Shown piece after piece: positions 1-10,853 of a stretch of DNA of 64,000 bases. Below the pieces are notes generated by a model that saw only the letters and a program-made list of their open reading frames with translations, had not been told where the DNA came from and did not search any database. This DNA is from Tabrizicola flagellatus (GTDB lineage: Bacteria; Pseudomonadota; Alphaproteobacteria; Rhodobacterales; Rhodobacteraceae), in the NCBI RefSeq assembly GCF_008271465.1, contig NZ_VMDU01000003.1, forward strand, positions 186,001 through 250,000, in the 5' to 3' direction. The position numbers and the translations under genes are program-made. Position 1 is the first letter of the stretch; each line of letters starts with the position of its first letter.

Positions 1-860
1 TGCTGTCCAGCCTTCTGGCCCATGGCCATGACATCCGCAGTCTTGCCGCGCGCGGCACGTATCCGGCGCTGGGCATCCTGGCCGAGGCGGCGGGCTACGA
101 GCAGCGGCGCAACGAGCTTTACAGCTGGGACGGGATGAAGCGGGGAAGCGCGCCTTTCCTGGTGATCCAGCACACGATCCTGGGCGAGGGACGGCTGGAC
201 TTCGCCGGGGTGCGGCATCGGCTGGGTCCGGGGCAGACCATGCTGGTGACGATGCCGCACGCGCACCGCTACTGGCTGGAGCGGGGCGGGCAGTGGGAGT
301 ATTTCTGGCTCATCCTGTCGGGGCGCGAGGCGCTGCGGCTGGCGCGGGAGGTGCTGGCCGCAGCGGGGCCGGTGCTGAAGCCGGGGCCGGAGGGGGCCGA
401 GCGGCTGGCCGGGGCCTGTCACGCGCTGCTGACCCGGTCGCTGACGCCGGCGCAGGCCTCGGTCCTGGGCCACGAGGCGCTGGCGGTGCTGTATGACGCG
501 GCCTTTGCCGGAGCCGAACCGCGCCCGGCGCTGGCGCCGGAGTTGGCGCGGGTGCTGGCCCATGTCGAGGCGAACCTTGCGGGCGACCTGCGGGTGGAGG
601 CGCTGGCAAGGGTCGCGGGCCTGAGCCGGGCGCATTTCGTGCGCCGCTTTGCCGCCGAGGTCGGCCTGCCGCCTTCGGCGCATGTGCTGGCGCGGCGGAT
701 GGACCGGGTGGAGCGGCTCCTGACGGCCTCGGAGATGAAGGTGGCCGAGATTGCCCGGGCCACGGGCTTTGCCGAGGCGAACTATCTGGCCAAGGCCTTC
801 CGGCGGCACCGGGGGCTGTCGCCGATGGCGTTCCGCGCCTTGCGCGACGAGGCGGTCTGA
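1..860 (+). CDS. AraC-family transcriptional regulator (5' end outside window)
   Basis: The frame is open from the left edge (first full codon at base 3) and stays homologous-looking well before the first ATG at 135, so that ATG is internal and the true start lies at or beyond the edge. About 285 residues are visible. An N-terminal cupin-like sensor region (SYSWDG-type segment, then a GPGQTML turn and HAHRYWLE) is followed by a C-terminal AraC DNA-binding domain with two helix-turn-helix units (VEALARVAGLSRAHFVRRF and VAEIARATGFAEANYLAKAF, ending in GLSPMAFR). It converges on the halogenase-like gene. Its target is not evident; regulation of the neighbouring sugar operon is only a guess. Confidence 0.85.
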   Translation, partial: LSSLLAHGHDIRSLAARGTYPALGILAEAAGYEQRRNELYSWDGMKRGSAPFLVIQHTILGEGRLDFAGVRHRLGPGQTMLVTMPHAHRYWLERGGQWEYFWLILSGREALRLAREVLAAAGPVLKPGPEGAERLAGACHALLTRSLTPAQASVLGHEALAVLYDAAFAGAEPRPALAPELARVLAHVEANLAGDLRVEALARVAGLSRAHFVRRFAAEVGLPPSAHVLARRMDRVERLLTASEMKVAEIARATGFAEANYLAKAFRRHRGLSPMAFRALRDEAV

Positions 861-941: not shown

Positions 942-2444
942 TCAGGAGGATGCGCGCAGCGATTGCAGCCAGGCGCGGTGCGGCAGGGCCAGCGATGCGG
1001 CGCGGCGGTATTCGGCGACCAGTGCCGCATGGGTCTTGCGGGCATGGTCGCGCGCCCTGGGGTCGGCAGCCATCTCGGCCCGCGCGGCGTCGCGGTTCAG
1101 CAGGCCGAGGCCGTCCAGGACGGGCACGTAGAGCTGTTCCTGCACATGGGCGAGGCCCAGATGTTCCAGGCCCGGCGGAAAGCGGGGGAAGTCGTCGCGG
1201 GTGGGGGTCTTCTTCTGCCACAGCGCCAGCCGGTCGGTGACGAAGTCGGGGTGGCTGGCGGTGATGTCGCGCCAGAAGGCGCTGTCGCGGCGTTCGGTGA
1301 CATAGTGCAGCCGCACGAAATCGCGGAAATCGTCCACCTGCCGGGCGAAGGCGGTGTTGTAGCGGTCGCGGCCCTCGGGCGTGCCCAGCCATTCGCCGAA
1401 CATGATGAGCTGCACCACGGTGCCGTGGATCGAAGTCGCCTCCAGGGGTTCGAGGAAGCTGGAGGCCAGCCCCATCGCCAGGCAGTTGCCGATCCACGGC
1501 CGCTCCATCCGACCCGCGTCGATGCGGATGTCGCCGCGCGGTTCGACCTCGTGCCCCAGCGCCGCCTCGATCTCGCGCTTTGCCTCGTCCGGCGAGATGT
1601 GGCGGTCGGAATAGACATAGCCCGCGCCGATCCGGTCCTGCGTGGGGATGCCCCACATCCAGCCGTTCTTCTGCGCCCAGGCGAGCGTGCAGGGCGTGAT
1701 CTCCTCGCCGTCCTTGAGGTCGATCCAGAACGGGAGCGCGCGGTTGATCGGCAGCACGTCGCTGTAGCTGATCCAGCGGGGGCCGAGTTCCGAGATCAGC
1801 CGGCGGCGGAAGCCGGAGCAGTCGAGGAAGAAGTCGCCATCGACCCGCTGGCCGCTTTCAAGCGTCAGCGCCCTGATCCCGTCGTCGCCAAGTTCGACGC
1901 CCGTCACCCGATCGTCGATCAGCGCGATTCCCCTGGCCTTCCTGCGCAGCCACTGGCCGACCAGCGCCTGGTCGAAGTGGAAGGCGTAGTGGAAGGGGCC
2001 GACCGGAACCGGGCGGCCGTCCTTCAGCGCGTAGGGGCCCTTGTTGCCGTCCAGCAGATGCTGGAACAGATGCGCCTCGGCCACCGGGCGGCCGGCAGCG
2101 ATGGCATAACGGTCGAGCTGCGCGCCACCCGCCACCAGATGCGGGTCGTCGATCGGCCCGTCGTAGGTGTAGCCCACCCGCCGCCAGTCCTTGTGCCGGA
2201 TGCCGAGCTTGATCGTGGCGCCGGTCTCGCGCAGGAATTCGGTCTCGTCCAGGTCGAAGTGGCGCAGCATCTGGCGGAAGACGGCGGTCGAGCCCTCGCC
2301 GACGCCGATGACGCCGATCTTCGAGGACTCGATCACCGTGACCCTGGTGGCATGCCCGCGCCGTTTCGCCAGGTCGGTCAGCATCATGGCGGAAAGCCAC
2401 CCCGCCGTGCCGCCGCCGACGATGACGATATGCGCGGGCCACAT
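942..2444 (-). CDS. Tryptophan-halogenase-like flavoprotein
   Basis: This is a 500-residue protein of the flavin-dependent tryptophan halogenase family. Visible features: a Rossmann FAD motif GGGTAGW (residues 10-16); GVGEGS (48-52); Lys79, at the position of the catalytic lysine of PrnA-type enzymes; the halogenase signature W-M-W-G-I-P (262-267); and Glu335 in LEPLEATSI, matching the second catalytic residue. The family uses FADH2, O2 and halide to make HOCl/HOBr that passes to the lysine. The substrate here is unknown, and no flavin reductase gene is nearby. It starts 5 bp after melA and ends the galactoside operon. Members of this family sit beside carbohydrate genes in some other proteobacteria, but their role there is unclear. 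The active-site residues argue against a decayed copy. Confidence 0.85.
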   Translation of the reverse strand: MWPAHIVIVGGGTAGWLSAMMLTDLAKRRGHATRVTVIESSKIGVIGVGEGSTAVFRQMLRHFDLDETEFLRETGATIKLGIRHKDWRRVGYTYDGPIDDPHLVAGGAQLDRYAIAAGRPVAEAHLFQHLLDGNKGPYALKDGRPVPVGPFHYAFHFDQALVGQWLRRKARGIALIDDRVTGVELGDDGIRALTLESGQRVDGDFFLDCSGFRRRLISELGPRWISYSDVLPINRALPFWIDLKDGEEITPCTLAWAQKNGWMWGIPTQDRIGAGYVYSDRHISPDEAKREIEAALGHEVEPRGDIRIDAGRMERPWIGNCLAMGLASSFLEPLEATSIHGTVVQLIMFGEWLGTPEGRDRYNTAFARQVDDFRDFVRLHYVTERRDSAFWRDITASHPDFVTDRLALWQKKTPTRDDFPRFPPGLEHLGLAHVQEQLYVPVLDGLGLLNRDAARAEMAADPRARDHARKTHAALVAEYRRAASLALPHRAWLQSLRASS

Positions 2445-2449
2445 GCGCC

Positions 2450-3817
2450 TTAGCCCGCCTTGCGCACGGGCACCCGCGCCCAGTCGGGCAGCCAGTCGCC
2501 GTGGGCCTCCAGAAGCTCGGTCGTCAGCTGCCAGATCTGGTCGAGGTCCAGTTCCGCCCCGGTGTGCGGGTCGAGCATGGCGGCGTGGTAGATGTGGTCG
2601 GGGTTTTCGGTCAGCAGCGCCTGGACGGTCAGGTCCTGGACGTTGATGTTGGTCCGCATCAGCGCGATGAGTTGCGGCGGGATGTCGTGGACCACGGTCG
2701 GTTGCAGGCCCGAGGCATCGACCAGCACCGGCACCTCGACCGCGCAGCCTTCGGGCAGTTGCGGGATGTAGCCGCGGTTGCCGATGTTGCCGTAGATCAC
2801 CGAAGGTTCGCCCGTCACCACCGAGTTCACGATCTCGGACGCATATTCGTGGCTTTCCTTCACCTCGACGGTGTTGGCGTTCTTCAGCGCCTCGGCCTCC
2901 TTCTTCCAGCGCGCGATCTGTTCGACGCAGCGCTTGGGGTATTCGTCCAGCGGGATGCCGAATTTCTCGATCAGGTCCGGGCGGTCGCGCTTGATGAACC
3001 AGGGCGTGTATTCGGCGAAGTGTTCCGAGGACTCGGTGACGAAATAGCCAAGCCGCGTCAGCATCTCGTAGCGGACCCTGTTCGGGCAGCGCGGGTTCCA
3101 GTGCGAGGGCTTGGGGAAGCGCCCCTCGCGGTAGCCCCTGACGAGGTCGGGGTAGAGGTTGCGGTAGCTGCCGTCCGGCTGGCGGTGTTCGAAGGTCAGG
3201 AAGAAGGCCATGTGGTTGATGCCGCCCGCGCGGTAGCGGATCTCTTCCACGGGAATGTCGAGGTCGCGGGCCAGTTCCCAGGCCGTGCCCTGCACGGAAT
3301 GGCAGAGGCCGACCTGCCGGATCTTGGGGTATTTCGCGGCGATGGCCCAGGTGTTGATCGCCATGGGGTTGACGTATTGCAGCATGATCGCGTTCGGGGC
3401 GACCTCAGCCATGTCCTCGCAGATCGACCAGAGGTGCGGGACGGTGCGCAGGCCGCGCATGATGCCGCCGATGCCCAGCGTGTCGGCGATGGTCTGGCGC
3501 AGGCCGAACTTCTTCGGCACCTCGAAATCGGTGATGGTGCAGGGGTCGTAGCCGCCGATCTGGAAGCAGACGACGACGAAATCCGCCCCGTCCAGCGCGC
3601 GGCGCTGGTTGGTGTAGGTCTTGACCGTCGCGGTCCCGCCCAGGGTCTGGGCCATCTTGCCGACGATGATCTCGGATTCCTCCAGCCGCTCGGGATTGAT
3701 GTCCATCAGGCGGATTTCCGCGTTGGCGAGCGCCGGGCGCGAGAGGATGTCGCCGGCGATGTTCTTGGTGAACACGGTCGATCCGGCGCCGATGAAGGTG
3801 ATGACGGGGGTGGGCAT
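2450..3817 (-). CDS. melA: Alpha-galactosidase, glycoside hydrolase family 4
   Basis: 455 residues, the usual GH4 size. An N-terminal Rossmann fold (FIGAGSTVFTKN, 8-19) binds NAD+. GH4 enzymes work by an NAD+- and Mn2+-dependent redox-elimination mechanism. The metal-binding Cys and His are visible as C172 in LCHSVQGT and H202 in GGINHMAF. Conserved NPM (150-152) and GGIMRGLRTVP (118-127) also fit. The enzyme should split intracellular melibiose or raffinose-type oligosaccharides delivered by the ABC transporter encoded upstream on the same strand. Alpha-glucosidase and alpha-galacturonidase are related GH4 activities, but the MelR-like regulator and AgpA-type binding protein favour alpha-galactosides. 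Confidence 0.88.
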   Translation of the reverse strand: MPTPVITFIGAGSTVFTKNIAGDILSRPALANAEIRLMDINPERLEESEIIVGKMAQTLGGTATVKTYTNQRRALDGADFVVVCFQIGGYDPCTITDFEVPKKFGLRQTIADTLGIGGIMRGLRTVPHLWSICEDMAEVAPNAIMLQYVNPMAINTWAIAAKYPKIRQVGLCHSVQGTAWELARDLDIPVEEIRYRAGGINHMAFFLTFEHRQPDGSYRNLYPDLVRGYREGRFPKPSHWNPRCPNRVRYEMLTRLGYFVTESSEHFAEYTPWFIKRDRPDLIEKFGIPLDEYPKRCVEQIARWKKEAEALKNANTVEVKESHEYASEIVNSVVTGEPSVIYGNIGNRGYIPQLPEGCAVEVPVLVDASGLQPTVVHDIPPQLIALMRTNINVQDLTVQALLTENPDHIYHAAMLDPHTGAELDLDQIWQLTTELLEAHGDWLPDWARVPVRKAG

Positions 3818-3826
3818 GATGCTCCT

Positions 3827-5440
3827 CTAGGCTGCGATTTCGAAGGCCGCCTTGACGAGGCGGCGGGTGTAGTCGGTCGTGGGGTTCTCGAGCACCGCGT
3901 CAACGGGGCCCTGTTCGACGATGCGGCCGTGCTGCATGACGATGACCCGGTGGCAGAGCGCGCGGACGACCTTGAGGTCGTGGCTGATGAAGAGATAGCT
4001 CAGCCCCTTGTCGCGCTGCAGCTTGCGCAAGAGTTCGATGATCTGGGCCTGGACGGACAGGTCGAGCGCCGAGGTCGGTTCGTCCAGGAGGATGAACTCG
4101 GGTTCCAGCGCGATGGCGCGGGCGATGGCGAGGCGCTGGCGCTGGCCGCCGGAAAACTCGTGCGGAAAGCGCGACAGGATCGTGTCGGGCAGGCCCGCGT
4201 CGCGCAGCGCCTGCCTGACGCGCGCCTCGCGGTCGGCCCGGCCCTGGCCGATGCCGTTGACGATCAGGCCCTCCTCGATGATCTGGCGGACCGACATGCG
4301 CGGGTTGAGGCTGGCGAAGGGATCCTGGAAGACGATCTGCATCCGCTGGCGGTAGGGCTTCATGCCGCGCCGGTCCAGCCCGTCGATGCGGTGGCCGAGG
4401 AAATCGACCTCGCCCTCGGTCAGATTGTTCAGCCGCAGCAGCGCCTGGCCGAAGGTGGTCTTGCCCGAGCCGCTTTCGCCGACCAGCCCCAGCGTTTCGC
4501 CGCGCTTCAGCGCCAGCGACAGACCGTCCACGGCTTGCAGCTTAGACCAGGTGCCCCGGAAGGCGCCGCCCTTGCGCAAGTTGTAGGTGACGCGGATGTT
4601 GCGGCCCTCCAGCACGGTTTCCTCGCCCACCTGCGCCGGGTCGGCCCGGCCCCTGGGCTCCGAGCCGAGCAGGCGGCGGGTATAGGGGTGCCGGGGGCTG
4701 GTGAAGATGGTTTCGGTCGGCCCGGCCTCGCGCACCACCCCATGCTGCATGACATGGACATGGTCGGCGAACTGGCGGACCACGGTCAGGTCATGGGTGA
4801 TGAGGATTACGGCGAGGCCGGTCCGGTCCTTCAGGTTCTTGATGAGGTTCAGGATTTCCGCCTGAACGGTCACGTCCAGCGCGGTCGTCGGTTCGTCGGC
4901 GATCAGCACGTCGGGGTTGTTCGCCAGCGCCATGGCGATCATCACCCGCTGGCGCTGGCCGCCCGAAAGCTGGTGCGGATACTGGTTCAGCCGCGCCTCG
5001 GGATCGGGGATCTGCACGTCCTTCAAGAGCGCGAGCGCCCGGTCCTTCGCCTCGGCCTTCGACATCCGGTTGTGGATGCGCAGGACCTCGGCGATCTGGG
5101 TGCCGATGGTATAGACCGGGTTCAGGGAGGACATCGGCTCCTGGAAGATCATCGACAGCCGGTTGCCCCGAAGGGCGCGCATCTCGGCCGGCGAGAGCCG
5201 CGCCATGTCGCGCCCGGCATAGAGGATCTCGGTCTGCGGGCTGACGATGGCGCGCTTGGACAGAAGCCGCATGATCGCCCGGGCGGTCACCGACTTGCCG
5301 CTGCCGCTCTCGCCCACCAGCGCGATGGTCTGGCCCCTGCGCAGGGTGAAGGAGACATCCCTGACGGCCTCGATCGTGCCGCCGTCCACCTTGAAGCTGA
5401 CCCCGATGTTGCGGGCGTCGATGACGATGTCGTCGGTCAT
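3827..5440 (-). CDS. ABC transporter ATP-binding protein, two fused nucleotide-binding domains
   Basis: 537 residues with two complete ATPase halves, like DppD and DppF in one chain. Walker A is GESGSGKS at 43-50 and GESGSGKT at 321-328. The first ABC signature LSGGQ is at 158-162, with ADEPTTALD as Walker B. The second half has FSGGQ and LDEPTSALD. It would power the two permeases encoded upstream. The start at 5440 was chosen because GGAGGA lies a few bases before it, between it and the stop of the preceding permease gene. A longer in-frame start at 5470 would lie inside that gene. The role is alpha-galactoside uptake (AgpD-like), from operon context. Confidence 0.9.
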
Positions 5441-5450
5441 GGCGTCCTCC

Positions 5451-6575
5451 TCAATAGGGGTCGATGGCATCGCGCAGCCCGTCGCCCAGCGCGTTGAAGG
5501 CGAAGACGGCCATGAGGATGAAGCCCACCGGGGACAGGATCCAGGGATAGGAGCCGATGACCGAGAAGGTCGAGGCGTCCTGAAGCATCAGCCCCCAGGA
5601 GATCAGCGGCGGCTTCACGGCAAAGCCGAGGTAGCCGAGGAAGGACTCCAGAAGGACGATGGCGGGGATGCCGAGCGTGATGGAGACGATCACATGGCTC
5701 ATCACGTTGGGCAGGATGTGGCGCGTGACGATGCGCGCGTCCGAGGCGCCCACCGCCTGTGCCGCGCGGACATAGTCCACCCGCGCCATGGCCATGGTCT
5801 TGGACCGGACCTCGCGCGACAGCTGCGCCCAGCCGAGGCCGGCGATGACCAGGATCACGAAGGTGATGAACAGGGACGAAGGCGCGGTCACGGGGATCAG
5901 GGTGGTGAGCGTCAGGTAGAGCGGCAGTTGCGGGAAGGCGAGGACGATCTCCACGAAACGCTGGAACCACAGGTCGAAGCGCCCGCCGACATAGCCCGAG
6001 ACGATGCCCAGAAGCGTGCCGGCGATGGTGATGAGCGTGATCGAGGTCAGCGCGATGATCAGCGTGATCCGGCTGCCGATGATCCCGCGCGACAGGATGT
6101 CCCGCCCCAGCTTGTCGGTCCCCAAGAGCCGCAGCGGCGTGCCGTCGGAGAGGCCGATGAAATGCGTGTTCATCGGGATCAGGCCGAGGAAACGGTAGTC
6201 CCAGCCGTCCACGAAGAAGGCCAGCGGGCGGGGATTGTCGAGATCCGGCCCCATCAGCGGCTGGAAGGTGATCGGGTCCAGCTCGTCGCTTTCGGTGATG
6301 GCATAGACCACCGGCCAGGGGGTGAAGCCCTCTTTCGTGAAGAAGCTGATCCGGTCCGGCGGCGCGAAGGAGGCGCCGTTGGCGTTGGGGTTCTGGGGGG
6401 CGAAGAACTCGGCGAAGATCGAGATCAGGAAGAGGAGCGAGACCAGCACCAGACCCAGCATCCCCGGCACCGACTTGCGGAACCGACGCCAGACCAGCGC
6501 CCGATAGCTTTGCGAGGCGGTCGAGACCGTGGAGAGCCTGGCATCGGCCTCTTCGCCGTCATGGATCGCGGTCAT
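5451..6575 (-). CDS. ABC transporter permease, DppC/OppC type
   Basis: 374-residue inner membrane protein. A hydrophilic N-terminus precedes a first membrane segment (about 38-55). A long periplasmic region typical of OppC proteins follows (about 60-160), then five more hydrophobic segments. The BPD_transp_1 signature is seen in EVRSKTMAMARVDYVRAAQA followed by LPNVMSHVIV. Its ATG overlaps the stop of the upstream permease gene by four bases (ATGA), so the two permeases are translationally coupled. It forms one half of the translocation channel for the oligosaccharide importer. Confidence 0.9.
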   Translation of the reverse strand: MTAIHDGEEADARLSTVSTASQSYRALVWRRFRKSVPGMLGLVLVSLLFLISIFAEFFAPQNPNANGASFAPPDRISFFTKEGFTPWPVVYAITESDELDPITFQPLMGPDLDNPRPLAFFVDGWDYRFLGLIPMNTHFIGLSDGTPLRLLGTDKLGRDILSRGIIGSRITLIIALTSITLITIAGTLLGIVSGYVGGRFDLWFQRFVEIVLAFPQLPLYLTLTTLIPVTAPSSLFITFVILVIAGLGWAQLSREVRSKTMAMARVDYVRAAQAVGASDARIVTRHILPNVMSHVIVSITLGIPAIVLLESFLGYLGFAVKPPLISWGLMLQDASTFSVIGSYPWILSPVGFILMAVFAFNALGDGLRDAIDPY

Positions 6576-7600
6576 GCGTTGCCTCCCACCCGGATGCGCG
6601 GGTCGAGCAGGGCCAGCAGGAGGTCGGCGATGATGTTGCCGATGATGAGCGTGGCGCCGAGCACCAGCAGCAGCGTCGCGGTGACATAGACATCGCCGAT
6701 GGCCATGGAGCCGACGATGGCCGGGCCGATGGTGGCCAGGCCGAAGACGATGGCGACCTCGATCTCGCCGGTCAGCATGTAGGGCAGGACGACGCCCTGG
6801 TAGGCGACCAGCGGGTGCAGCGCGTTCGGCACCGCGTGGCGCATGATGACCGCGCCTTCGCCGAGGCCCTTGGCGCGGGCGGTTTCGATGTACTGGGCGT
6901 TCAGCGTGTCAAGAAGGTTCGCCCGCATCACCCGCATGTTGTAGGCCAGCCCCCCGAAGGCCGCCACCGCGATCACCGGCCAGATGTGCTGGATCAGGTT
7001 CCAGAGCTTGGCCCAGTTGAAGTCGAGAAAGCCCAGCCAGTAGGGCTGCCCGCCGTAGCGCGAGGAATAGAACGAGCCGATTTCCTGCACGTTCAGCTGG
7101 AAGACGAGGATGTAGAGGATGATGAGCGCAAGAAGGAAGCGCGGGATCGTCATACCCATGAAGCTGACGAAGGACAGGACGGTATCGATCCAGGTGTATT
7201 GCCGGGTCGCGGCCAGGATGCCGAAGCCGATGCCGATGAAGGTGGCCAGGAGGTGGCAGGTCAGCGCGATGGCGATGGTCGGCGGCAGGCGCTGGGCGAG
7301 GATCTCGGCCACGGGCTTGTTGTAGGCGTAGGACTGGCCGAAGTCGCCGCGGCTGACGATGCCCCAGATCCAGCGGACATATTGCACGACCAGGGGATCG
7401 TTCAGGCCATGCGTCTCGCGATAGCGGTTGGCGGCCTCGGTCGCGGCCTCGGGCGAGGCGCCGCCCTGCACGATCATGTTGGTGCGGATGAAGTCGCCAT
7501 AGTCGCCCGGCGGGGCCTGGATGATCAGGAAGGTGATGAAGCTCATCACGATCAGGACCGGCACCGATTGCATCAGGCGGACGCCAAGAAAGCCCAGCAT
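6572..7600 (-). CDS. ABC transporter permease, DppB/OppB type
   Basis: 342 residues from the ATG at 7600, which has an AGGAG seven bases upstream; an ATG 18 bases earlier has no comparable site. The protein opens with the membrane segment typical of DppB-like permeases (SVPVLIVMSFITFLIIQ). A periplasmic loop with NDPLVVQYVRW follows, then five further membrane segments. The EAA-like loop is NAQYIETARAKGLGEGAVIMR. It pairs with the OppC-type permease encoded next. The gap to the binding-protein gene holds a strong hairpin, which probably sets lower expression for the permeases. Confidence 0.9.
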   Translation of the reverse strand: MLGFLGVRLMQSVPVLIVMSFITFLIIQAPPGDYGDFIRTNMIVQGGASPEAATEAANRYRETHGLNDPLVVQYVRWIWGIVSRGDFGQSYAYNKPVAEILAQRLPPTIAIALTCHLLATFIGIGFGILAATRQYTWIDTVLSFVSFMGMTIPRFLLALIILYILVFQLNVQEIGSFYSSRYGGQPYWLGFLDFNWAKLWNLIQHIWPVIAVAAFGGLAYNMRVMRANLLDTLNAQYIETARAKGLGEGAVIMRHAVPNALHPLVAYQGVVLPYMLTGEIEVAIVFGLATIGPAIVGSMAIGDVYVTATLLLVLGATLIIGNIIADLLLALLDPRIRVGGNA

Positions 7601-7638
7601 CGCGGGTCTCCTGTCCATGGGTGAGATGGGAGAGGGCG

Positions 7639-7670
7639 CCCGGGGGCGGCGGTCGTCTGCCGCCCCCGGG
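7639..7670 (-). terminator. GC-rich intra-operon hairpin behind the binding-protein gene
   Basis: Two perfect 12-base arms (CCCGGGGGCGGC at 7639-7650 and GCCGCCCCCGGG at 7659-7670) enclose an 8-base loop. It lies between the stop of the binding-protein gene and the start of the first permease gene. There is no U-run, so it is more likely a partial terminator or a 3' mRNA-stabilising structure than a full stop. Such hairpins commonly keep binding-protein mRNA more abundant than permease mRNA. Confidence 0.7.
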
Positions 7671-7686
7671 CCTCGGGAGGATCCCG

Positions 7687-9759
7687 TCAGTTCGCCGCGA
7701 CCGGCCCGGCCGAGCCGGGCGCGCCGGGCAGGGTCTGCGGATGCAGTTCGGCGCCGATCTGCTTGTCCGTGGGCACATACACCCGTTCGCGGATGATGTT
7801 GTCCTCGGCCCAGTTGTACATGAAGATCGGAGCCCCCGCCGGGATGTTGGCGAAACGCTTGTTGATTATGAGCGCGCCGGGATAGGCGGTCAGACCTACG
7901 GCGGCGACGTTTTCGGTGAAGACCTTCTGCCAGGTCTTCATCGCCTCGACCTTGGCCGCCGGATCGCGGGTGCCGGTGAAGGCCTTGATCGCGGCGACGA
8001 GCTCTTCCTCGTAGGGCAGGAGGTCCATCTCGCCGGCCCCGTTCGCCCGGTGCCAGACCGCCGTCATCGGACCCATAGGGGCAAGCCGGTCGGTGCCCTG
8101 GACGACCGAGACGAATTCCTGGTCGTTGCGCCGCAGCAGCCAGTCCCAGGCCCCGGCGTCGCGGGCATTGTCGTAGTCTTTGCCTGTCAGGCTGTTCAGC
8201 GTGACCTTGACGCCCACGTCCGCCATCATCGCGACCACGCCCTCGGCGAGGTTCTTGTCGGTGGCATAGTCGGCGTTAACCAGAAGCGTGACGTTCAGGT
8301 CCCCGCCGCCGGGCAGGTTGACCGCGCCGTTTCCGTCGGTGTCGGTCAGCCCCGAGGCTTCGAGAGCCATCCTCGCGCTTGCCTGATCGAAGGGGTAGAA
8401 CACCGTCGAGCCGGCGTCATAGTAGCTGGTCGAGGTGAGGAGCCCCCCGGCATAGGGCGCGGTGAACGGGCCCTTGACCAGGCTGTCGCCCAGCCGCTGG
8501 CGGTCCAGCGCATAGGTCACGGCCTTGCGGAAATCGAGGTTCCGGTTCAGCTCGCGCACCGCCTGACCCCGGGCATCGGGCTCGCCCCAGCCGTTGGCCG
8601 ACTGGTTGAAGAACAGCTGATAGCCGATGGACCGCGGCCCGAAGGCCAGACGCGCGGGACTGGCCGGATCGGCGGCCTTCTTCAGGCTTTCGACATAGTT
8701 TTCCGGCTGTTCCAGGTTCGAGAAATCGCCCGTCCCCGCCACGGCCTGCACGTCGCGGTCGCCCCAGGTGGAAAGCCGGTAGTGCATCTCGTCGAGGTAG
8801 GGGAGCTGCTGGCCGGTCTCGTCCACCTTCCAGTAATAGGGATTGCGGCGCATCACCACGATGTCGTCGGGGCGGTGTTCCACCACGGTCCAGGCGCCCA
8901 TGGTCGGGAAGTTCATGTAGTTCGACGGGAAGGCGTTCAGGAAGGCCTCATAGCTTTCGCCGCCATACTTGGGGTGCTTGGGTTTCAGAAGGTGCGCCGG
9001 GCCGGGGCAGAAGTTGCCGTAGGCCATGGCGTAGAGCACCTGTTCGGGGAAGGGATCCGCGAAGCTGAGGGTGAAGGTGTAGGGGTCCACCACCGCGAAG
9101 GTCGCATTGTCGTAGGTCGCGGGGCTCGCGCCCATCAGGGGTGTGACGTTCTCGTCCATCACCACGTCGTTCCAGTAGAACTCGATGTCCTCGACGTCGA
9201 AGGGGTCGCCGTCCGACCATTTCGCGCCCTCGATCAGGTGGACGGTCAGCGTCTTGCCGTCCTCGGACCATTCCCAGCTTTTCGCCAGGTTCGGCAGCGG
9301 TTGCAGGTCGTCGGCGTTGACGGTGAACAGGGGGCCGGTGCGCGTCAGGCATTCCACCAGGCCAATGTCGATGCCGCCCCAGCCGTAGCTTTGCCCGGCC
9401 CAGAAGTTCCAGCCCTCGGGCCGCCCGCCGATCACATGGCGCATCACGTCGCCATAGACGCCGGGCCCGTCGGGCATGTTGGCGGTCTTGTAGACCAGCG
9501 GTTCCTTCGGCAGGCGTTCGGCTACCGGCGGCAGCTTGCCAGCCTCGACGAAGGCCGTGACCCAGGCCGGTTCGGAATAGGCCGGCAGGGCCTTGAACTC
9601 GAAGATGTCCGCGCGGTTGACGAAGACCGGCTCGGTCTGCGCCTCGAACTTCGGAGCCTCCGGCGGTGCGGTCGGCGCGGCCATCTCGGCCTGCACCGCA
9701 GCAGCGGACACCCCCATGAGCAGCGCCGCCAATGCGGCGCGCCGGCTATGGATCGTCAT
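7687..9759 (-). CDS. Periplasmic oligosaccharide-binding protein, AgpA-like (SBP family 5)
   Basis: 690 residues, beginning with a Sec signal peptide (MTIHSRRAALAALLMG, predicted cleavage after AAVQA). The start at 9759 has AGGGAGG just upstream; the open frame before it would spoil the signal peptide. The body is a family 5 (Opp/Dpp) binding protein. WSEDGKTLTVHLIEGAKWSD is the family hallmark, and GWGGID, FNQSANGWGEP and a DTDGNGAV loop also appear. At about 690 residues it is longer than peptide-binding DppA/OppA and matches the size class of the rhizobial alpha-galactoside-binding protein AgpA. With melA downstream, melibiose/raffinose binding is the best guess; peptide binding cannot be excluded. 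Confidence 0.82.
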   Translation of the reverse strand: MTIHSRRAALAALLMGVSAAAVQAEMAAPTAPPEAPKFEAQTEPVFVNRADIFEFKALPAYSEPAWVTAFVEAGKLPPVAERLPKEPLVYKTANMPDGPGVYGDVMRHVIGGRPEGWNFWAGQSYGWGGIDIGLVECLTRTGPLFTVNADDLQPLPNLAKSWEWSEDGKTLTVHLIEGAKWSDGDPFDVEDIEFYWNDVVMDENVTPLMGASPATYDNATFAVVDPYTFTLSFADPFPEQVLYAMAYGNFCPGPAHLLKPKHPKYGGESYEAFLNAFPSNYMNFPTMGAWTVVEHRPDDIVVMRRNPYYWKVDETGQQLPYLDEMHYRLSTWGDRDVQAVAGTGDFSNLEQPENYVESLKKAADPASPARLAFGPRSIGYQLFFNQSANGWGEPDARGQAVRELNRNLDFRKAVTYALDRQRLGDSLVKGPFTAPYAGGLLTSTSYYDAGSTVFYPFDQASARMALEASGLTDTDGNGAVNLPGGGDLNVTLLVNADYATDKNLAEGVVAMMADVGVKVTLNSLTGKDYDNARDAGAWDWLLRRNDQEFVSVVQGTDRLAPMGPMTAVWHRANGAGEMDLLPYEEELVAAIKAFTGTRDPAAKVEAMKTWQKVFTENVAAVGLTAYPGALIINKRFANIPAGAPIFMYNWAEDNIIRERVYVPTDKQIGAELHPQTLPGAPGSAGPVAAN

Positions 9760-9926
9760 GATACCTCCCTTGACCTGTGGCTGTTCCCGGTCATCCGGCT
9801 TTGCAGTCCTTGCCGGGCGGGACTCCGTCCTTCCCGGTCCGGCAGGCAAAGCTTGCGGAAAGCGGCGGGGTGCAGCAATGTCAGTTCGTCAGAAACTTTT
9901 CCGGTTTTCTAAGATCGGCCGAGACC
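9760..9926. promoter_or_regulatory. Divergent promoter region of the galactoside operon and its regulator
   Basis: This 167-base gap separates the divergent binding-protein and MelR-like genes and should hold both promoters and the operator. The least GC-rich part (9878-9913) has a GTCAG direct repeat (9880-9884 and 9888-9892) and an AGAAA/TTTCT inverted pair (9891-9895 and 9906-9910). I could not recognise a convincing -35/-10 pair. Confidence 0.4.
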
Positions 9927-10853
9927 ATGGACGGCGACCGCAGCACGGCACTCAGACGGCGCAACCCGACTCCGGTCCCGAACCACGAGCGGCATTTCTA
10001 CGCGCGCAACCGCGCCTTCGGCCGGTTCGGCATCCGCATCTTCGAGCCGCAGCTGATGCCGATGCCGCACTGGCACGGCCACGTCGAGATGAACTTCGCG
10101 ACCGGCGTGCGGATGACCTACGACTTCGACGGCAGCCGCCTGACCGTGCCCGAAGGCCGGCTGGTGCTGTTCTGGGCCGGGGTTCCGCACCAGCTGACCG
10201 GGCTGGAGCCGGTGGGCGAGGGGCCGATGCGGCTGGCCAACATCTACCTGCCGCTCGACAGCTTCCTGCAGATGCGCCACATCATGACCCTGCAGGCGGC
10301 GCTGATCGGCCGGGGGATGGTCGCCCTGCCGGACACGCTGTGCGACGCCGGTCTGGTGCAGCGCTGGTATGCCGACTACCGATCCGGCGATTTCGAGCGC
10401 GCCGAGATCGTCAAGATGGAGCTGAACGCGCTGTTCCGCCGCGCGCCTGTCGCCGGGTTCGACTTCCTGCGCGACCCCCTGCACGAGATCGGCAGCGACC
10501 GTTCGCTGAGCACCGCGCATGTCCGGCATGTGATCGCGATGGTGCGGCATGTGCTCGAGAATCTGGAAAAACCGCTGCTGAACGCAGAGGTCACAGCCGT
10601 CACTGGCCTGCACGAGAACTATGCGCTGGCGTTGTTTTCCCGAACCATGAAGGTGCCCCTGAAGCAGTTCATCAACCGGATGCGGCTGATGCGGGCGCGG
10701 GCGCTCTTGGTCGAAAGCTCGACCGCCATATCCGAAGTCGCCGAACAGAGCGGCTTCAGTTCACTGACCCAGTTCTACGCCCGGTTCCGGGCCGGCTACG
10801 GGATATCGCCCGCCGCGCTGCGCCAGCACTACGTCCGCATGGACCTGCGATAG
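9927..10853 (+). CDS. melR: MelR-like AraC-family regulator of galactoside use
   Basis: 308 residues from the ATG at 9927, close to the length of E. coli MelR (302, from memory). The N-terminal cupin region has PHWHGHVEMNF and VLFWAGVPHQLTG, which closely resemble MelR's HWHGQVEVN and LFWACTPHQLT. The C-terminal domain has two helix-turn-helix units (LNAEVTAVTGLHENYALALF, ISEVAEQSGFSSLTQFYARF). MelR activates melibiose genes when melibiose binds the cupin domain. Divergent placement from the operon head supports the same job here. An open frame reaches back to 9777 but runs across the intergenic region, so that start is not used. Confidence 0.8.
   Translation: MDGDRSTALRRRNPTPVPNHERHFYARNRAFGRFGIRIFEPQLMPMPHWHGHVEMNFATGVRMTYDFDGSRLTVPEGRLVLFWAGVPHQLTGLEPVGEGPMRLANIYLPLDSFLQMRHIMTLQAALIGRGMVALPDTLCDAGLVQRWYADYRSGDFERAEIVKMELNALFRRAPVAGFDFLRDPLHEIGSDRSLSTAHVRHVIAMVRHVLENLEKPLLNAEVTAVTGLHENYALALFSRTMKVPLKQFINRMRLMRARALLVESSTAISEVAEQSGFSSLTQFYARFRAGYGISPAALRQHYVRMDLR

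Follow-up and report, generated by a model that had tools for sequence, protein, structure and literature searches.

A flavin-dependent-halogenase-type gene that accompanies one type of alpha-galactoside importer in Tabrizicola flagellatus and related bacteria

In rhizobia, the melA-agp operon serves the use of melibiose and raffinose (PMC4254191). Tryptophan halogenases contain four tryptophan-binding regions, Trp1 to Trp4, of which Trp2 has the motif HxF and stacks on the indole ring (PMC8269204), together with a lysine and a glutamate, equivalent to Lys79 and Glu335 below, that are described as needed for halogenation (PMC5945002). Here we describe a locus of Tabrizicola flagellatus in which a halogenase-type gene stands at the end of an operon resembling the rhizobial one. 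The window, i.e. the whole stretch of 64,000 nucleotides that was analyzed, contains at positions 942-9759, on the reverse strand, six co-directional genes, all with open reading frames, which encode in this order a binding protein, two permeases, a fused ATP-binding cassette (ABC) ATPase, an alpha-galactosidase of glycoside hydrolase family 4 (GH4; gene melA) and, last, a protein of the flavin-dependent halogenase type. The first-pass annotation of this DNA had placed the halogenase-like gene 5 bp behind melA, in one operon with an AgpA-type binding protein, two permeases and a fused ATPase, and both statements were borne out by the domain matches and coordinates (Table 1). No report linking a halogenase to alpha-galactoside or sugar uptake was found in the open-licence literature, as judged by titles and the starts of abstracts.

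Co-occurrence of the halogenase-type gene with the importer

The distribution of the gene was surveyed in 394 Rhodobacteraceae genomes from 393 genera, with halogenase matches accepted at E <= 1e-60 and melA matches at E <= 1e-140; only the best two to four first-look candidates per genome were scored, so that misses are possible. The halogenase matches split into two groups, one of them 49-89% identical to the window protein (18 genomes and T. flagellatus itself, with a broken copy in genome G368) and the other at most 38% identical; the former is referred to below as the clade. An AgpA-type binding protein was present in 21 of the 394 genomes, all of which carry melA, and an intact clade gene was found in 19 of these 21, T. 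flagellatus among them (Fisher test of clade gene versus binding protein, 1.9e-30, the genomes being treated as independent here and in the other tallies). In contrast, an intact clade gene was found in none of the 71 genomes that have melA but not the binding protein. By these data the halogenase gene follows the importer and not melA, and a general tie of the enzyme to melA is not supported, since melA occurs in 92 of the 394 genomes and the intact clade gene in only 19. Therefore, of the co-occurrence with melA and AgpA-type transporters that the first-pass annotation had proposed to survey, the part concerning the transporter held and that concerning melA at large did not, and the link is confirmed in a more specific form, to one importer type. 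In genome G368 (locus L054) the binding-protein, ATPase and halogenase genes are all in pieces, and the adjoining melA was matched over nearly its whole length.

We also inspected 40 melA loci picked for the absence of a neighbouring halogenase gene (38 from the 72 melA genomes in which neither a clade gene nor a piece of one occurs, and 2 being second loci of genomes that carry the gene elsewhere), of which only three had the AgpA-type binding protein. At one picked locus, L175, the importer beside melA is of the CUT1 type and comes with MalK and an IclR regulator, and weak ATPase matches suggest this importer type at further picked loci, about ten having no assignment. Galactose itself appears unsupported as the substrate, since the enzyme is lacking at many picked loci that do have galactose-route genes.

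The neighbourhood of the gene was then compared at 68 named clade loci (at least 46% identity). GH4 or importer genes were present in the flanking DNA at 63 of them and at none of the 12 loci below 46% identity, and six loci with more distant homologues (L056-L061) had neither. The possibility, raised in the first-pass annotation, that close homologues are usually found without the sugar genes was thus answered in favor of the link. The binding protein was present at 31 of the 35 clade loci with at least 8 kb on either side. The halogenase gene lies directly behind melA at 43 of the 68 loci and directly behind the ATPase gene at 10; at 4 it stands between a second GH4 gene (GH4b) and the binding-protein gene, at 3 behind GH4b and convergent to the operon, at 2 convergent to the operon across a 1.2-kb gap, and at 6 the position is another one or cut. 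In genome G220 the operon lacks the halogenase gene, which sits on another contig. Because 25 of the 68 loci have arrangements other than directly behind melA, the association holds through rearrangement. The named set overlaps with a further clade set and both include near-identical genomes; moreover, the named and viral sets were picked by motif patterns (EPLEATSIH, GGGTAGWL[AS]; [IV]GVGEG[TS]T, EPLEATSI), so that agreement inside these motifs is partly selection, and the residues GPI, Trp224 and Asn234 lie outside them.

The setting of the halogenase gene is catabolic. At loci L075, L079 and L081 it is followed by genes for an IlvD/EDD-type dehydratase, a galactose-dehydrogenase-like short-chain dehydrogenase/reductase (SDR), 2-keto-3-deoxygalactonokinase (DGOK) and 2-keto-3-deoxy-6-phosphogalactonate (KDPGal) aldolase; L075 and L081 also have GH36, and L080 has the SDR, the kinase and the aldolase together with GH42. 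The dehydratase, SDR, DGOK and KDPGal aldolase together represent the De Ley-Doudoroff galactose route. As a separate observation, in Mesorhizobium sp. BR1-1-16 a gene for a patatin-like protein (L110, 11600-12694) separates the halogenase gene from melA, and Kaistia soli (L111) has a gap of about equal size at the matching place.

Operon components and the pocket of the clade proteins

All components of an AgpA/MelB-type uptake operon, namely a binding protein, two permeases, a fused ATPase, a GH4 enzyme and an AraC-type regulator, are present at the locus (Table 1). The best match of the binding protein among solved chains is a periplasmic alpha-galactoside-binding protein (E 3e-288), and by this homology the importer would carry alpha-galactosides. 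The operon genes are separated by 68 bp after the binding-protein gene, overlaps of 4 and 20 bp, 9 bp and 5 bp, and neither Sigma-70-like nor terminator-like signals rose above shuffled sequence. The same gene arrangement was found again in dozens of genomes and is therefore above chance. The second AraC-family regulator gene occupies the same position in several congeners (L064-L067).

Table 1. Features of the locus (positions in the window, unless a locus is given)
Feature	Position	Strand	Basis or remark
Flavin-dependent-halogenase-type protein, 500 aa	942..2444	-	PF04820, 349 bits; nearest solved chains are tryptophan halogenases
GH4 alpha-galactosidase, MelA type	2450..3817	-	PF02056/PF11975; NCBIfam PRK15076 subfamily model passed, 665 bits (cut-off 486)
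Fused two-domain ABC ATPase, dipeptide/AgpA-type importer	3827..5470	-	Two ABC_tran stretches
Inner-membrane permease, OppC type	5451..6575	-	PF00528, PF12911
Inner-membrane permease, OppB type	6572..7618	-	PF00528, PF19300
Periplasmic binding protein, AgpA/MelB type	7687..9759, ATG at 9759	-	SBP_bac_5; nearest solved chain 6epy
Divergent AraC-family regulator, MelR-related; true start maybe further in	~9777..10853	+	HTH_18; NCBIfam MelR, 147 bits, below cut-off 253
Second AraC-family regulator, between the halogenase gene and GH4b	135..860	+	AraC_binding and HTH_18
Second GH4 gene (GH4b), outside the window	L062 9556-10917	-	Nearer edge 84 bp before window base 1

Besides the halogenase-type protein the genome has no strong match to PF04820 (cut-off 21 bits); two other matches score 25 and 19 bits. 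As the first-pass annotation had stated, the flavin adenine dinucleotide (FAD) motif (GGGTAGW at 10-16), Lys79, Glu335 and WMWGIP (262-267) were found intact when the residues were checked by script. Among 91 clade proteins, a set that includes duplicates and the window's own copy, the glutamate and WxWxIP are kept in all 91 and the lysine in 89, the two others having a run of N and a disturbed N terminus. An AlphaFold2 (AF2) model (pLDDT 90.7, pTM 0.89) matched PyrH with a TM score of 0.88 in Foldseek, and other halogenases matched as well. Because the catalytic lysine and glutamate are retained, chemistry of the hypohalous acid (HOX) type is favored and appears fairly likely.

The tryptophan-binding regions, assigned by sequence alignment, are altered. 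At the Trp2 place, where tryptophan halogenases have HxF, the clade proteins have GPI (89 of 91) or GPL (2 of 91), followed by Asp in all 91, and the third residue is Phe in all 24 other cellular homologues compared. The Trp1 place reads Thr and then Ala, Ser or Gly in at least 89 of the 91, and it ends in Pro in 23 of the 24 others. None of 92 clade sequences fits either published Trp4 pattern; nor does any of the 24 others, so this feature is not specific to the clade. By the Trp2 and Trp4 criteria the clade falls outside tryptophan halogenase groups A and B as given in PMC8269204. With HxF replaced by GPI or GPL the pocket is likely less aromatic, indole substrates are disfavored and a polar or larger substrate may be expected. 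The aryl substrate suggested in the first-pass annotation thus found no support, the indole-stacking motif being replaced in 91 of 91 proteins.

Evolution in the genus and relatives in phages

Clade members were found in Rhodobacterales, in Hyphomicrobiales (Devosia, Kaistia, Mesorhizobium) and in uncultured alphaproteobacteria with AG- isolate names, presumably marine single-cell genomes (G582, probably one of these, measures 1.6 Mb at 96% completeness), as well as on two contigs labelled Deltaproteobacteria and one, with a run of N, labelled Trueperaceae. Within the genus of the window, melA at least 92% identical to that of the window was present in 10 of 32 genomes, six of which have the halogenase gene. 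Three congeners (G001, G021 and G010) keep melR and melA (93-95% identical) with no importer at the locus, and the clade gene was not found anywhere in their genomes, that of G010 being 59% complete; the whole G001 genome also lacks the importer binding protein. In G010 a 42-codon remnant of the importer ATPase gene (L207, 12925-13050) lies directly before melA, which hints that the importer genes were removed by an internal deletion. A further congener, G015, has melA (92% identical) at a contig edge, with the stretch before melA beyond it.

When the window was compared with the five halogenase-carrying congeners, melA was 92-93%, the importer genes 88-95% and GH4b 89-92% identical, whereas the halogenase gene product was only 62-63% identical (L063-L067 range). 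The window halogenase is 88% identical to that of locus L068, from another genus, with which it groups (support 1.00). The difference between the halogenase (62-63%) and its flanking genes (88-95%) points to replacement of the halogenase gene alone in its slot. All trees were made with FastTree only, and the MelA tree places the window among its congeners weakly (0.70). The halogenase gene is under purifying selection, with ratios of nonsynonymous to synonymous substitution rates (dN/dS) of 0.037-0.081 in 10 pairs, rough values since some dS are near 1.

In a tree of 92 clade, 24 other cellular, 79 IMG/VR and 5 isolate-phage sequences the clade was monophyletic (0.996) and grouped with viral sequences and four of the five phage isolates (0.995), apart from the other cellular homologues. 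The phage halogenases are therefore the closest relatives of the clade among the sequences compared, the branching order among phage groups being weak (0.41). Some IMG/VR contigs may be of cellular origin; the main viral group includes two cyanophage isolates. Of the 79 viral sequences 42 have GPI, more than any other motif. Clade genes themselves were not met on viral contigs, the best identity in the 79 loci kept being 41% among the matches listed. Halogenase-like genes are seemingly common on such contigs (L213-L291), with at least 600 pattern-matching stretches, at least 582 of which encode a relative. In cyanophages S-RIM44 (L293) and S-PM2 (L294) Gln replaces the catalytic Glu (EPLQATSIH), and in S-RIM44 the halogenase-like gene lies near genes for transaldolase, gnd and plastocyanin.

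Proposed function, alternatives and known systems

Taken together, these results make it very probable that the halogenase-type enzyme is functionally coupled to the importer. We propose that the clade enzymes form a distinct halogenase-type subfamily dedicated to assisting the AgpA/MelB-type alpha-galactoside importer. The GH4 enzyme would first cleave the imported galactoside, a general flavin reductase would supply FADH2, and the halogenase-type enzyme would form a flavin hydroperoxide and, with halide, HOX, using Lys79 and Glu335 to halogenate or oxidize either one particular imported galactoside as a whole or the part of it other than galactose. With this substrate included, the scheme as a whole is tentative and somewhat short of an even chance. 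The substrate is probably neither indole-like nor galactose. Because the enzyme tracks the importer and the rhizobial raffinose and melibiose systems lack it, the substrate is likely delivered by the importer beyond the galactose unit, or else is a metabolite modified only when the ligand is sensed; the former is favored. That this subfamily of mostly aquatic bacteria and phages acts on a non-aromatic polar substrate (a sugar, a polyol or another importer-delivered aglycone) is conceivable and, in our view, doubtful.

Several findings weigh against this proposal. The halogenase gene is missing from the importer operon of genomes G149 and G365, and five clade loci (L102, L118, L121, L137 and L149) lack sugar genes, two of them being cut at the gene. 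Plasmids of Sinorhizobium meliloti and R. leguminosarum carry the importer and two GH4 genes without it, and in a search of plasmids, with rhizobial chromosomes lying outside it, 247 records have the binding protein and only one record, from a Sulfitobacter, has a clade halogenase. In congener G015 neither the 4.2 kb behind melA nor the rest of its 81% complete genome yielded a halogenase gene, and the absence in G010 is to be read with its low completeness. Finally, no flavin reductase gene was seen within the window operon or among the annotated accessory genes at other clade loci, which leaves a dedicated, operon-encoded reductase unsupported; four flavin reductase domains scoring above cut-off elsewhere in the genome could feed the enzyme. 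The rhizobial agp operons work with the same genes minus the halogenase, and the enzyme is therefore unlikely to be needed for the common alpha-galactosides; for the same reason, the detoxification of an ordinary aglycone, as suggested in the first-pass annotation, fails to explain the rhizobial operons.

The altered pocket, with GPI or GPL followed by Asp in all 91 proteins and a changed Trp1 place in at least 89, would also suit a flavin monooxygenase or oxidase built on the halogenase scaffold that takes a polar compound of the galactoside pathway as its substrate and is not a halogenase in the cell, and the wider superfamily has named monooxygenase or maturases (QhpG, GoxB, LodB; weak matches, far below cut-off). 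We consider this unlikely, as Lys79 and Glu335, residues needed for halogenation according to PMC5945002, and WxWxIP are kept in essentially all members. A different role, in which the regulator senses algal or plant galactosides and the enzyme halogenates a cell metabolite as a signal or as a weapon against neighbours, is suggested by carriers with algal-sounding names (Devosia rhodophyticola, Devosia algicola), by the rhizobial plasmids that have the agp binding protein without the enzyme, and by the apparent swap of the window copy in its place, as for a diversifying product. Such sugar-triggered chemistry is harder to reconcile with the strong tie to one importer and not to galactoside operons at large, with the loci at which enzyme gene and importer are both absent and the regulator gene is retained, and with the finding that no gene family, those of the operon and the regulators excepted, occurs in more than 4 of 34 clustered sequences (only part of the families being annotated), and we consider it unlikely as well. 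The predominance of the order melA-halogenase (43 of 68 loci) could also mean that the gene spread as a passenger inside a successful operon, with no tie to the transported substrate; the five other arrangements or positions, one on another contig (G220), the joint absence with the importer, the in-slot replacement and dN/dS values below 0.1 make this very improbable.

Coupling to the importer would have consequences beyond this locus. A halogenase family usually counted as secondary metabolism seems to have a sugar-use branch, and a catabolic, non-biosynthetic role, if true, would to our knowledge be the first for the family. Since the clade is tied to a single importer, whose ligand class is known from a structure, the search for the substrate narrows from all aromatics to what one binding protein accepts and the corresponding aglycones. 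A non-aromatic substrate would mean unusual chemistry for this scaffold and may also shed light on the related genes of phages. Among the genes annotated as tryptophan halogenase, many lack a known role, and the native substrates are unclear even for the assayed BrvH, as described in PMC7336383.

Compared with known systems, the enzyme shares with the tryptophan 5-, 6- and 7-halogenases (PyrH, SttH, AbeH, PrnA, RebH, Thal) the fold, the FAD motif, the catalytic Lys and Glu and WxWxIP, but identity is only about 26-32% in structural alignments, Trp1 and Trp2 residues are replaced, the Trp4 patterns are absent and the clade stands in a catabolic operon. The indole-accepting BrvH and Xcc4156 likewise have a PF04820-type fold, the catalytic residues and, by the accounts in PMC5945002 and PMC7336383, no known native substrate; they are 31-32% identical to the window protein in structural alignments, and the HxF motif was compared in homologues other than these two. 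The phage proteins (IMG/VR; S-PM2, S-RIM44) resemble the clade in the GPI/SPI-type motif at the HxF place and differ from it in identity (at most 41% in the loci kept), in their phage genome setting and, in S-PM2 and S-RIM44, in the Gln for Glu. The melA-agp operon of S. meliloti pSymB (agpT, melA, agpA and downstream genes) lacks a halogenase gene in the region and has GH4b at its other end; it has in common with the window an AraC regulator, a GH4 enzyme, a binding protein, two permeases (the gene for one of which was matched in the DNA and is missing from the gene table), an ATPase and a second GH4 enzyme in the same order, with 63% identity in the binding protein, 70% in the fused ATPase and 78% in the second GH4 enzyme.

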